Source: an uncultured Dokdonia sp. (lineage in GTDB: Bacteria; Bacteroidota; Bacteroidia; Flavobacteriales; Flavobacteriaceae). Taken from it: a stretch of DNA of 64,000 nucleotides. The stretch covers positions 62,001 to 126,000 of the forward strand of contig NZ_CANMDS010000007.1 of assembly GCF_947496725.1 (NCBI RefSeq), read 5' to 3'. The notes below the pieces were generated by a model that had not been told where the DNA came from, ran no database searches, and worked only from the letters and a program-made list of their open reading frames with translations. Numbering within the stretch: the first letter of the stretch is position 1; each line of letters begins with the position of its first letter. This document shows, piece by piece, positions 31,400 through 36,084 of this stretch. Position numbers and translations under genes: made by a program.

Positions 31400-33460
31400 T
31401 TGATAAAAAATAATATACCACCTGTAGCCAAAAAAATCGCTGTTCAACTAGAAAAGCATAATGATACCCGAGTAGATGATTATTTCTGGATGAATGAAAG
31501 AGATAGTCCAGAGGTGTTATCACATCTTAAAGAAGAAAATAGGTATTATGATGAGATGACGTCCCATACCAAAGCTTTTCAAACTGAACTTTTTGAGGAG
31601 ATGAAAGGTAGAATAAAAGAAGATGATACCTCTGTACCTTATAAGCATAATGGATACTGGTATTATAGGCGTTTTGAAACAGGTAAGGATTACCCATTAT
31701 ATTGTAGAAAAGAGGGAAATTTAGATGCCCCAGAAATCATCGTTTTTGATAATAATGAGATGGCTTCTGGTCATTCATATTTTAGTCAAGCTAGTTACTC
31801 TGTCTCAGAAGATAATACCATTGCAGCTTACGGTGTTGATACTGTAAGTAGACGCCAGTATACCATACGTTTTAAGAACCTCCTTACTGGAGAGATATTT
31901 AGTACAGAAATTAAAAATACAACCGGTGGTGCTGTATGGGCAAATGATAATAAAACTGTCTATTACTCTAGAAAAGACGAAGAGACACTGCGCTCTAATC
32001 AGATATTTAAACACACATTAGGTACAGATCCTAGTGAAGATGTGCTTGTTTATCAAGAAGACGACGAGACTTTTTATACATATGTCTTTAAGTCAAAGTC
32101 AAAAAAATATATTCTCATAGGTTCTGACAGTACGATGACGAGTGAGTTTAGATTTGCATCTGCAGCCCGAGGAACAACAGATTTTAAAGTTTTTCAAGAG
32201 CGTACACGAGGTCTTGAGTATGCAGTATCGCATTATGATAACGCGTTTTATATACAGACTAATAAAGATAAGGCTACTAACTTTAAGGTAATGAGAACCC
32301 CAGAAAACCAAACAGCGATGCAGCACTGGGAAGACCTTATACCTCATAGAGAAGACACGCTTATAGAAGATGTAGAGATTTTTAAGGAGTACTTAGTGAT
32401 AAGTGAGCGCAGCAACGGGTTAAATAAGATAAGAATCAAAAGCTGGGATGATAGCGTAGACTATTACCTTCCTTTTGATAATGAAACTTATGATGCATAC
32501 CCTACGACAAATATAGATTTTGATACTCCGGTACTCAGATATGCCTACAATGCTCTAAATACGCCTGCATCTGTTATAGACTTTGATATGAAAACTCAAG
32601 AAAAAACGGTTCTTAAAGAACAAGAAATTCTGGGTGGTAATTTCTCAAAAGATAACTATAAGATGGAGCGCATCTGGGCACCTGCTCAAGACAGTGCAAA
32701 AATTCCAATCTCTATCGTTTATCATAAAGATACAGTACTAGATGGAAACGCTCCGCTATTACAATATGCATACGGAAGCTATGGAAGTACCATAGATCCA
32801 TCCTTTAGCAGTATACGTCTTTCTCTGCTTGACAGAGGTTTTATCTATGCCATTGCCCATATACGAGGTGGTGAGTATCTAGGTCGTAAATGGTATGAAG
32901 ATGGAAAACTCTTAAAGAAGAAAAACACTTTTACAGATTTTATAGATGTTTCAAAACATCTAATAGCACAAAATTATACGTCTTCAAAACACTTGTATGC
33001 CTACGGAGGGTCTGCCGGAGGGTTGCTTATGGGTGCGGTAATAAATATGGCACCAGAGCTTTACAACGGGGTCATTGCTGCTGTTCCTTTTGTAGACGTA
33101 GTTACAACAATGCTTGATGATACCATACCACTCACCACCGGAGAGTATGATGAGTGGGGTAACCCTAATGATAAGGAGTTTTATGAATATATGAAGAGTT
33201 ACAGTCCATATGATAACGCTTTCGCGAAAGCGTACCCAAACTTATTAGTAACAACAGGATATCACGATAGCCAGGTGCAATATTGGGAGCCAGCCAAATG
33301 GATTGCAAAGCTAAGGGAGAATAACACTTCTAATAACCAAATCATCTTTCAGTGTAATATGGATGCAGGTCACGGCGGAGCATCAGGACGTTTTGAGGCT
33401 CTAAAAGAGGTGGCGCAAGATTATGCGTTTTTGCTTGATTTAGAAGGGGTTACTAAGTAG
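31400..33460 (+). CDS. S9A prolyl oligopeptidase-family protease, oligopeptidase B type
   Basis: Serine peptidase of 686 residues that cuts short peptides, after basic residues in oligopeptidase B. N-terminal PPVAKK...RVDDYFWMNER, then a seven-bladed propeller to about residue 430, then the alpha/beta-hydrolase domain with nucleophile elbow YGGSAGGLLMG (catalytic Ser), the catalytic Asp near TTGYHDSQVQYWEP and His in NMDAGHGGASGR. No signal peptide, so cytoplasmic. The start codon is TTG: the conserved PPVAKK segment begins six residues in, and no ATG or GTG lies between it and the promoter. An exact genomic palindrome inside the gene encodes AFAKA at about residue 607. Confidence 0.92.
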   Translation: MIKNNIPPVAKKIAVQLEKHNDTRVDDYFWMNERDSPEVLSHLKEENRYYDEMTSHTKAFQTELFEEMKGRIKEDDTSVPYKHNGYWYYRRFETGKDYPLYCRKEGNLDAPEIIVFDNNEMASGHSYFSQASYSVSEDNTIAAYGVDTVSRRQYTIRFKNLLTGEIFSTEIKNTTGGAVWANDNKTVYYSRKDEETLRSNQIFKHTLGTDPSEDVLVYQEDDETFYTYVFKSKSKKYILIGSDSTMTSEFRFASAARGTTDFKVFQERTRGLEYAVSHYDNAFYIQTNKDKATNFKVMRTPENQTAMQHWEDLIPHREDTLIEDVEIFKEYLVISERSNGLNKIRIKSWDDSVDYYLPFDNETYDAYPTTNIDFDTPVLRYAYNALNTPASVIDFDMKTQEKTVLKEQEILGGNFSKDNYKMERIWAPAQDSAKIPISIVYHKDTVLDGNAPLLQYAYGSYGSTIDPSFSSIRLSLLDRGFIYAIAHIRGGEYLGRKWYEDGKLLKKKNTFTDFIDVSKHLIAQNYTSSKHLYAYGGSAGGLLMGAVINMAPELYNGVIAAVPFVDVVTTMLDDTIPLTTGEYDEWGNPNDKEFYEYMKSYSPYDNAFAKAYPNLLVTTGYHDSQVQYWEPAKWIAKLRENNTSNNQIIFQCNMDAGHGGASGRFEALKEVAQDYAFLLDLEGVTK
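33216..33233. repeat. iterated palindrome copy in CDS
   Basis: Perfect ACGC...GCGT inside the oligopeptidase gene, read as NAFAKAYP, in the catalytic domain. Confidence 0.95.
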
Positions 33461-33531: not shown

Positions 33532-33539
33532 TACTTTTG
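33532..33539 (+). promoter_or_regulatory. -7 element (TACTTTTG) of the PLP lyase gene
   Basis: Exact TAnnTTTG, 56 nt before the ATG at 33596. Confidence 0.55.
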
Positions 33540-33595: not shown

Positions 33596-34636
33596 ATGAA
33601 CAAGGACTTAAATGTTTATGATAACGCGTTACAACTTATAGGTAACACACCACTCATAAAATTAAATAGCATTACGGCAGACTTTGATGGTGAATTTTTA
33701 GCCAAAGTTGAAGCTTTTAACCCAGGCCACTCATCAAAAGATCGTATAGCACTTCACATTATAGAAGAAGCAGAGCGTACGGGAGTACTTAAACCTGGTG
33801 ATACCATTATAGAAACTACATCTGGTAATACAGGTTTTAGTATTGCTATGGTAAGTATTATAAAAGGTTATGAGTGCATACTCGCTGTAAGCTCAAAATC
33901 TTCTCCAGATAAAATTGATGCTCTTAAAGCAATGGGAGCAAAGGTGTATGTATGCCCGGCAAATGTAAGTGCAGACGACTCTAGATCTTATTATAGTGTA
34001 GCAAAAAGACTGCACGAAGAAACTAAGGGTTCTGTATACATTAATCAGTATTTTAATGAGCTCAATATAGATGCTCATTACTTATCTACAGGTCCAGAAG
34101 TGTGGAATCAGACAGAAGGGAAGATTACTCACCTCATTGCTTGTAGTGGTACAGGTGGCACAATATCTGGTACGGCTAGATTCTTAAAAGAGCAAAACCC
34201 AGAGATAAAAGTAATAGGAATAGATGCTTATGGGTCTGTGATTCAAAAGTATCACCAGACACGTGAGTTTGACGCTACAGAGATTTATCCATACAGAATA
34301 GAAGGTTTAGGTAAAAACTTAATACCTACAGCTACAGATTTTGACGCTATAGACGAGTTTGTAAAAGTAAGTGATGAAGAGGCAGCACATAGTGCTAGAG
34401 AGATTGCGACCAGAGAGGGGTTATTTGTAGGTTATACAAGTGGTGCCGCTATACAAGGTTTAAAGCAGCTTGCTGCACAAGGGGAGTTTACAAAAGATAG
34501 TAAAGTAGTTATCATATTTCCAGATCACGGAAGCCGCTATATGAGTAAGGTCTTCTCTGATAAATGGATGAGTGACCAAGGCTTTTTTGATAGTCAAAAT
34601 GAAGAAGCTGTCGCAACTATAGAATACATAAAGTAA
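33596..34636 (+). CDS. PLP-dependent beta-replacement enzyme, probable cysteate synthase
   Basis: Fold type II PLP enzyme of 346 residues. [13 protein letters not shown] Lys48 in GHSSKDRI, the [12 protein letters not shown] loop, [10 protein letters not shown] phosphate cradle and [11 protein letters not shown] resemble the catalytic core of cystathionine beta-synthase and cysteine synthase, without CBS domains. Cystathionine, cysteine or cysteate synthesis are all compatible. I favour cysteate synthase (O-phosphoserine plus sulfite, as in capnine synthesis) because the next gene, 135 nt downstream on the same strand, is an alpha-oxoamine synthase unlike biotin BioF. Each gene has its own -7 element and a terminator lies between, so they are neighbours rather than one transcript. 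Symbol left empty because the substrate is inferred. Confidence 0.8.
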
Positions 34637-34657
34637 TCTAAAATATTACGTATATTT

Positions 34658-34682
34658 AAACTCCTACCTCGTGTAGGAGTTT
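34658..34682 (+). terminator. terminator of the PLP lyase gene
   Basis: Ten-bp stem AAACTCCTAC / GTAGGAGTTT, loop CTCGT, followed by a T run. Confidence 0.9.
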
Positions 34683-34741
34683 TTTGTTTTTGGCAATCAT
34701 ACTATTAGATTTTACTGTTAGGTAAAAATGTCAAAATTGTG

Positions 34742-34749
34742 TACTTTTG
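34742..34749 (+). promoter_or_regulatory. -7 element (TACTTTTG) of the oxoamine synthase gene
   Basis: Exact TAnnTTTG, 22 nt before ATG 34772. It overlaps the earlier in-frame ATG at 34739, which rules that start out. Confidence 0.65.
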
Positions 34750-34771
34750 CACCTGTTTTCAAAACAAGCAT

Positions 34772-36031
34772 ATGAAAGATTTATTTGATAAAATTTACAA
34801 GGATAAGGGACCATTAGGTAAATGGGCATCAGTAGCAGAGGGATATTTTGTATTCCCAAAGTTAGAAGGGCCTATTTCTAACCGTATGAAGTTTCAAGGG
34901 AAAGAAGTGATCACGTGGAGTGTAAATGATTATTTAGGTCTTGCAAATCGTCCAGAAGTAAGAGCAGTAGATGCACAAGCAGCTGCAGATTATGGATCTG
35001 CTTACCCTATGGGTGCTCGTATGATGTCTGGTCACACAGAGCTACACGAGCAACTTCAAAATGAGTGTGCAGCCTTTGTACAAAAGGAAGCAGCTTACTT
35101 ACTTAACTTTGGTTATCAGGGCATTATGTCTACTATAGACGCGCTGGTAGGTAAGGATGATATCATTGTGTATGATGTAGATACCCACGCTTGTATTATA
35201 GATGGTGTGAGATTGCATATGGGTAAACGTTTTACCTACAAGCATAACGATATGGCAAGTATCGAAAAAAATCTTGAGCGTGCTACAAAAATGGCAGAAC
35301 AGACAGGTGGTGGAATCTTAGTGATTTCTGAAGGTGTGTTTGGTATGCGTGGAGAGCAAGGAAAACTAAAGGAAATAGTTGCTCTTAAGAAAAAATTTAA
35401 CTTCCGTTTACTTGTTGACGATGCACACGGTTTTGGTACACTAGGTGCTACTGGTGCAGGAGCAGGTGAGGAGCAAGGTGTTCAAGATGATATAGATGTA
35501 TACTTTGCAACGTTTGCAAAGTCTATGGCATCTACAGGAGCATTTATTGCTGGAGATCAAGAAATAATAGATTACTTAAAATATAACCTACGTTCACAAA
35601 TGTTTGCAAAGTCACTGCAAATGCAACTTGTGGTAGGAGCACTTAAGAGATTAGATATGCTACGCTCTATGCCAGAACTTCGTGAGAAGTTATGGGAGAA
35701 TGTAAATGCATTACAAGGTGGTCTTAAGGAAAGAGGTTTTGATATAGGTACAACACAATCTTGTGTAACACCAGTATATCTTAAAGGATCTGTGCCAGAA
35801 GCAATGGCACTTGTAAAAGACTTACGTGAGAACCACGGAGTATTCTGTTCTATTGTTGTATACCCTGTAATACCTAAAGGTCTTATACTTCTTAGAATGA
35901 TACCTACGGCATCACATACGCTTACAGACGTAGAAGAAACACTTAATGCTTTTGAAGCGATACGTGAGCGTCTTGATAATGGAACGTACAAGAGACTTTC
36001 GGCAAAGGTGGCAGAGGCTTTTGGAGCTTAA
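34772..36031 (+). CDS. alpha-oxoamine synthase, probable cysteate acyltransferase (sulfonolipid synthesis)
   Basis: Fold type I PLP enzyme of 419 residues that condenses an amino acid with an acyl thioester, losing CO2. Motifs: SVNDYLGLANRPEV, YPMGARMMSGHTELHEQLQ, DDAHGFGTLGATGAGAGE and the Schiff-base Lys250 in FATFAKSMASTG. BioF, Kbl and serine palmitoyltransferase share this fold, but no biotin gene is nearby. Adjacency to a cysteate-synthase-like gene and the flavobacterial setting point to cysteate-fatty acyltransferase, first step of the capnine backbone that is linked to gliding motility. Start at 34772: the in-frame ATG at 34739 overlaps the -7 element. Cytoplasmic or membrane-associated. 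A reductase for the third step is not in this window. Confidence 0.78.
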   Translation: MKDLFDKIYKDKGPLGKWASVAEGYFVFPKLEGPISNRMKFQGKEVITWSVNDYLGLANRPEVRAVDAQAAADYGSAYPMGARMMSGHTELHEQLQNECAAFVQKEAAYLLNFGYQGIMSTIDALVGKDDIIVYDVDTHACIIDGVRLHMGKRFTYKHNDMASIEKNLERATKMAEQTGGGILVISEGVFGMRGEQGKLKEIVALKKKFNFRLLVDDAHGFGTLGATGAGAGEEQGVQDDIDVYFATFAKSMASTGAFIAGDQEIIDYLKYNLRSQMFAKSLQMQLVVGALKRLDMLRSMPELREKLWENVNALQGGLKERGFDIGTTQSCVTPVYLKGSVPEAMALVKDLRENHGVFCSIVVYPVIPKGLILLRMIPTASHTLTDVEETLNAFEAIRERLDNGTYKRLSAKVAEAFGA

Positions 36032-36052: not shown

Positions 36053-36084
36053 AAAACCCGTTACTAGTTATAGTAACGGGTTTT
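36053..36084. terminator. terminator of the oxoamine synthase gene
   Basis: Perfect 14-bp stem AAAACCCGTTACTA / TAGTAACGGGTTTT with GTTA loop and a T run. Confidence 0.93.

Follow-up and report, generated by a model that had tools for sequence, protein, structure and literature searches.

A probable capA-capB gene pair for the start of capnine sulfonolipid synthesis in a Dokdonia-like marine bacterium

Two adjoining genes of an uncultured Dokdonia sp. are, with high confidence, capA and capB, the pair with which capnine sulfonolipid synthesis starts, their enzymatic reactions being assigned from characterised homologues. They lie within the window, the stretch of 64,000 nucleotides analysed here (C7:62001-126000, from a 3.29-Mb genome). 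Family membership, active-site residues, gene layout, sequence-level transcription signals and presence in relatives are seen directly. By analogy, CapA, a PLP enzyme, would use sulfite to replace the phosphate of O-phospho-L-serine, yielding L-cysteate, and CapB would join cysteate and a fatty acid (as acyl-ACP) to form 3-ketocapnine. A short-chain reductase encoded elsewhere would convert this to capnine, and an N-acyltransferase would lead to the outer-membrane sulfonolipid, with putative genes for both of these steps; neither is clustered with the capA-capB pair. We infer from these genes that the organism produces sulfonolipids, a lipid class that published work connects with gliding, host immunity and the development of choanoflagellates. 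The capA-capB system is already known and is standard for the family, the Flavobacteriaceae, and the window pair is a further member of it. An earlier note on this DNA had described a cystathionine-synthase-like PLP enzyme beside an alpha-oxoamine synthase (AOS) and read the two as cysteate synthase and cysteate fatty acyltransferase (CFAT). Both open reading frames are present where the note placed them, with Pfam PALP and Aminotran_1_2 matches over cut-off, and the reading is borne out by a CapA score over its family cut-off and by the agreement of CapB with SulA and the CFATs in score, residues and clade.

The first gene, capA (33596..34636, + strand), encodes a predicted cysteate synthase of 346 amino acids with PLP fold type II, identified by NCBIfam, PDB match and tree. 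Its product scores over the cut-off for Pfam PALP (263.1 bits) and for the NCBIfam model NF053679, CysteaSynCapA (637.9 bits versus an equivalog cut-off of 600). Among solved chains, PDB 9k2p is matched at 507.3 bits, the next being a cystathionine beta-synthase (CBS) at 272.2 bits, with other CBS chains lower. The codon for Lys48, at 33737..33739 on the + strand, lies in an SSKDR motif, the KDR of which is common to the two solved chains aligned in the PDB search, and this lysine is presumably the one that binds PLP. The protein also scores well on the cysta_beta (388.9 bits) and cysK models, as would be expected of a cysteine synthase or CBS of sulfur assimilation. However, these scores fall under the models' own cut-offs (510.25 bits for cysta_beta), whereas the CapA score is over its own, and the genome holds a separate cysteine-synthase-like gene on contig C4 and a CBS-like gene at C7:164596. 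The products of both paralogues are under the CapA cut-off and outside the 22-row clade (SH-aLRT 98) in which the window protein groups with 9k2p, the outside rows of this tree being these two paralogues and one mycobacterial CBS (n=3). A role in sulfur assimilation is thus very unlikely for gene 1, and the grouping with cysteine synthases that the earlier note had named as evidence against a cysteate synthase was sought and not found in the NF053679 score, the paralogue scores or the tree. The wider CapA group is without branch support because the divergent rows from two genomes, G037 and G380, are not firmly joined to the clade. The protein is thereby placed with the NCBIfam CapA cysteate synthases by equivalog score and by the clade of 9k2p, with no substantive sequence difference seen, and its substrate use is predicted on that footing. 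A CapA cysteate synthase was reportedly described in Capnocytophaga by Liu et al. in 2022. The CBS-like PLP enzyme just mentioned (G000:C7:164596-165579, ∼39 kb downstream of the window) falls short of both cut-offs, with 486.1 bits on cysta_beta (cut-off 510.25) and 467.8-468.9 bits on the CapA model.

The second gene occupies an open reading frame at 34739-36031 on the + strand, 430 amino acids counted from a GTG. Translation most likely starts at the ATG at 34772, since this methionine is also the first residue of the solved homologue 28eh and a predicted -7 promoter box falls between the GTG and the ATG; capB (also sulA), a predicted cysteate acyl-ACP transferase (3-ketocapnine synthase) of 419 amino acids recognised by PDB matches and clade, therefore spans 34772..36031. 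Its product is over the cut-off for Pfam Aminotran_1_2 (135.3 bits), and the closest CapB among the matches listed, with 95% identity, is from an uncultured Dokdonia. Against solved structures it scores 703.8 bits on 28eh, annotated as "Cysteate-C-fatty acyltransferase", and 567.9 bits on SulA (7u7h), compared with 246.5 bits on the serine palmitoyltransferase (SPT) 3a2b and 191.8 bits on the Kbl 1fc4. In the available part of PMC9304779, SulA is described as making 3-ketocapnine from cysteate and acyl-ACP without using serine or phosphoserine.

Residues were compared in an alignment of 61 rows comprising CapB-type proteins, solved CFATs, SPT, plasmid AOS, BioF and Kbl, with SulA numbering as given in the available part of PMC9304779. 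The PLP lysine, K250 of the window protein (codon 35519..35521, + strand), corresponds to SulA Lys251, and the active-site set Asn53, His140, Asp217, His220, Thr248, Lys251 and Arg376 is fully conserved in the window protein. K280 (35609..35611, + strand) corresponds to SulA Lys281, a position that is alanine in SPT. Lysine occupies it in the window protein, as in every one of the 36 other CapB-type rows and the two solved CFATs; alanine is found in all 14 SPT loci, in 3a2b and in all four plasmid AOS, threonine in the genome's own BioF and in 8s1y, and asparagine in its own Kbl. All ten active-site positions compared, Lys281 included, agree between the window CapB and both 7u7h and 28eh, and the three proteins share a clade. 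A tree of the AOS superfamily, built by a quick search with SH-aLRT values only and no bootstrap and with some long branches flagged, places 39 CapB-type rows (the window protein and 38 others) on one side of a branch with an SH-aLRT of 100, apart from SPT and BioF/Kbl. Three CapB rows from one large genus of the same family (g2) are sister to 28eh (SH-aLRT 94); capA and capB lie apart in g2 genomes, unlike the window pair. The Alistipes finegoldii enzyme 7u7h comes from a genus that, according to the available part of a review (PMC10191378), uses another type of cysteate synthase. Fjoh_2419 of F. johnsoniae belongs to the SulA/CapB-type system named in papers and is likened to the window gene by description only.

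If gene 2 instead encoded SPT, the pair would belong to ordinary sphingolipid synthesis. The two enzymes share the AOS superfamily, PLP residues of 3a2b and the window protein are the same at nearly all positions compared, and the top NCBIfam score of the protein is on SerpalmtaseCFB (NF047600). That score, however, is 295.8 bits, less than half of the 640-bit cut-off, 3a2b differs from the window protein in Ala281, in clade and in the 246.5 bits that it scores against 703.8 for 28eh, and SPT has no need of the cysteate synthase encoded next door. An SPT assignment is therefore extremely improbable, and a profile search of this genome found no SPT over cut-off. A BioF or Kbl of biotin or glycine metabolism would have the same fold, and the protein scores 276.1 bits on TIGR00858 and 284.2 bits on PRK06939. 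Both values are under the cut-offs (426.45 and 460, respectively), but the bioF-type protein of this genome, with 316.2 bits on TIGR00858, its best match, is under the cut-off as well, so a missed NCBIfam cut-off is weak evidence when taken alone. Also against BioF or Kbl are the tree, which sets CapB apart from both, the CFAT score of 703.8 bits, and the location elsewhere in the genome of a bioF-type gene and of a true Kbl. In keeping with the earlier note, which had placed the alpha-oxoamine synthase away from biotin and glycine genes, the bioF-type gene is on contig C2 together with bioB and bioA, each of them over cut-off, and with a bioD between them named by eye, and the true Kbl (706.2 bits, cut-off 493) is elsewhere on that contig. 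The probability that gene 2 is BioF or Kbl is next to nil. A placement of the protein with BioF or SPT was sought in the PDB scores, at position 281 and in the tree, and all three put it with SulA and CFAT, the preferred assignment.

Sequence signals suggest that the two genes are expressed separately. A predicted -7 box with the sequence TACTTTTG lies upstream of capA (33532..33539, + strand) and another, also TACTTTTG, upstream of capB (34742..34749, + strand), both fitting a TA..TTTG pattern that we take to be the -7 element of Bacteroidota. In the 90 bp preceding the gene, such a box occurs in 69 of 77 relatives for capA and in 58 of 80 (the best 80 of at least 589) for capB, compared with 6.9 and 5.9, respectively, expected from mononucleotide shuffles. 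A predicted intrinsic terminator with a 10-pair stem and a T tail lies between the genes (34658..34682, + strand), and a terminator-like hairpin is present between capA and capB in 45/77 relatives versus 2.0 expected. Downstream of capB, a 14-pair stem listed on both strands (36053..36084) is a predicted bidirectional terminator that faces an MscS-type gene on the other strand. Promoters of the sigma-70 type were not above chance (5 found, 8.4 expected). Since each gene has a predicted -7 box of its own and a terminator stands between them, capA and capB are best read as two neighbouring transcription units, and a plain capA-capB operon was set aside on these signals alone.

Conservation of the locus was assessed on the best 80 of at least 589 confirmed relatives, a selection that leans toward close kin because the best matches were taken. 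The two genes share a strand in 79 of these best 80 loci, with capA 18-507 bp upstream of capB, and 77 of the loci have a matched S9 family peptidase. The latter corresponds to the conserved upstream neighbour in the window (31400..33460, + strand), identified by Pfam as oligopeptidase-B-like, and we know of no role for it in the sulfonolipid pathway. In a phylum sample of 395 genomes, 41 of which belong to the family of the window, CapA is over cut-off in 41 genomes, exactly those of the family, and CapB is matched at E <= 1e-95 in 139, including all 41 family genomes and all eight genomes of another sampled family of the same order. SPT at E <= 1e-140 is matched in none of the 41 family genomes. 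Given CapB in 139 of 395 genomes versus CapA over cut-off in 41, many CapB genomes may obtain cysteate another way. CapA matches below the cut-off were seen at 541-552 bits in eight order-level genomes and at 508.5 bits in G037, and in G380 the gene adjoining capB (L120) is a divergent CapA-like one.

Adjacency of the two genes is not obligatory, since they adjoin in 16 of the 41 family genomes and are apart in 25, these being all 23 genomes of g2 and two of a further genus (g3). In ten of the split genomes one contig carries both genes, separated by 123 kb to 3.3 Mb, and in the other 15 they are on different contigs. In the three g2 genomes looked at (among L122-L127), capA stays with the genes for the S9 peptidase, ybaB and threonine aldolase, and capB stays with the block found downstream of capB elsewhere. 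The layout in g2 is, from gene order, as if one ancestral capA-capB locus had split. Of the 17 genomes in the phylum sample with SPT over cut-off, 10 also have CapB at E <= 1e-95, which speaks against the suggestion, made in the available part of PMC10191378, that members of the Bacteroidota may have either sphingolipids or sulfonolipids but not both. G254 contains a 1143-amino acid fusion protein (L140:2145-5576) in which acyl-AMP ligase and ACP are joined to a CapB-type AOS with Lys281 retained; a VOC (glyoxalase-fold) protein follows, and the fusion might load its own acyl-ACP. CapB-like matches lie in similarly long open frames, of 1113 and 1171 amino acids, in G219 and G179.

The third gene of the pathway is absent from the window, as the earlier note had said: none of the genome's 14 matches to PF13561 and none of its 12 matches to the KdsR model is inside it. 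The note had also suggested looking for a short-chain reductase elsewhere in the genome. A candidate is present at C1:123008-123802, a short-chain reductase (SDR) that matches nearly the whole KdsR model, although its 262.5 bits are under the cut-off of 400; the next SDR scores 105.4 bits. A KdsR match at E <= 1e-55 is found in all 41 family genomes and in 50 others of the 395. According to the available part of PMC11211663, each of two genomes has three active 3-ketocapnine reductases, none of them adjoining the first two genes. In two class-level genomes, G064 and G158, the start of capB shares 4 bp with an SDR gene (L128:6178-9279 and L129:6099-9155), and the same VOC-protein family follows, an arrangement that may mark a lineage with a 3-ketocapnine reductase coupled to capB. 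We used this SDR to look for the reductase of the present genome and set it aside. Its best match there is the KdsR-like SDR, but orthology is not established because the identity is 30% and the score, 96.3 bits, is barely above the 93.6 bits of another SDR.

For the fourth step we tentatively consider a tandem-GNAT protein of 372 amino acids as an N-acyltransferase of capnine (or 3-ketocapnine), a possibility that we rate at somewhat less than even. A gene for such a protein lies on the opposite strand, convergent to and near capB, on 54 of the best 80 loci (of at least 589), at a distance of 1.5 kb or less on 52. Among the 26 of these best 80 (of at least 589) that have no tandem-GNAT gene near capB, the contig ends within 3.1 kb on three. 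In the phylum sample, the distance to capB is 1.5 kb or less in 24 of the 39 family genomes with both genes, and a tandem-GNAT gene adjoins SPT in 39 of the 55 genomes with both listed. Relatives likewise adjoin SPT on 10 of 14 SPT loci, the flanks of which extend only ∼1.5 kb. The organism's own gene (C3:186372-187508) is not near capB in the window; its product groups with the capB-adjacent tandem-GNATs, and the gene is flanked by homologues (∼43% identity) of the usual two flanking genes. This capB-type group is the sister of, and distinct from, the SPT-linked group and adjoins SPT in only 2 of the 28 genomes outside the family with both listed.

Tandem-GNAT matches were found in 44 plasmid records, seven of which were examined, and in five of the seven AOS or acyl-AMP ligase genes lie within ∼7 kb. 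No such lipid neighbours were seen in the other two, which carry closer homologues and are from Bacteroides finegoldii and a Chloroflexota, and the N-acyltransferase reading is weakened by the occurrence of close homologues without lipid neighbours. More remote relatives are accompanied by AOS, ACP, NAD-epimerase and acyl-AMP ligase genes in E. coli (yghO) and Rahnella, and lie beside AOS genes in Rubrobacter and Aureispira. The E. coli plasmid record (L273:2528-8125), with yghO and these four genes, has a ceramide-type gene set. A Roseomonas relative follows two LptF/LptG genes, resembling the Caulobacter order CC_1156-CC_1155-CC_1154 (cerS) given in the available part of PMC11324152. The ceramide synthase CerS (CC_1154) is thus likened by gene order only; a point in common is that a tandem-GNAT relative lies near capB on those 54 loci of the best 80 (of at least 589), and the differences are that none is near capB in the window and that the capB-linked proteins belong to the sister group of the SPT-linked ones.

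Presence alone says little, since 378 of 395 genomes have a member of the tandem-GNAT family; CapB-bearing genomes with no match to it are G053 and G355, of the family, and also G064 and G158. The predicted model of the protein (mean pLDDT 88.6) has a tandem-GNAT fold, with a Z score of 22.2 to 7q3a and of near 15 to N-myristoyltransferases, and such a fold does not indicate the substrate. The GNAT match in Pfam is weak, at 26.0 versus a cut-off of 20.7, and no NCBIfam model is over cut-off. The sulfonolipid N-acyltransferase is not named in the available parts of PMC10191378, PMC9304779, PMC7721639, PMC13422219, PMC11334938, PMC6148460, PMC10865984 and PMC11324152, most subscription literature being outside the search, and "N-acyl" is absent from PMC11211663. 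If the tandem-GNAT protein does act at this step, a single N-acyltransferase superfamily would serve both sulfonolipid and sphingolipid synthesis, with the condensing enzyme of the genome deciding between them.

The genome encodes the gliding proteins GldJ (966 bits, cut-off 458.2) and SprA (2769.3 bits, cut-off 200). Work cited in the available part of PMC10191378 found sulfonolipids to be needed for gliding, and through this link from the literature sulfonolipids may have a role in the gliding of this organism. Both committed steps of sulfonolipid synthesis are thus represented among the genes of a Dokdonia-like marine bacterium. Worth following are the prediction that capA and capB are transcribed separately, the split locus of one large genus, and the candidates for the two later steps.
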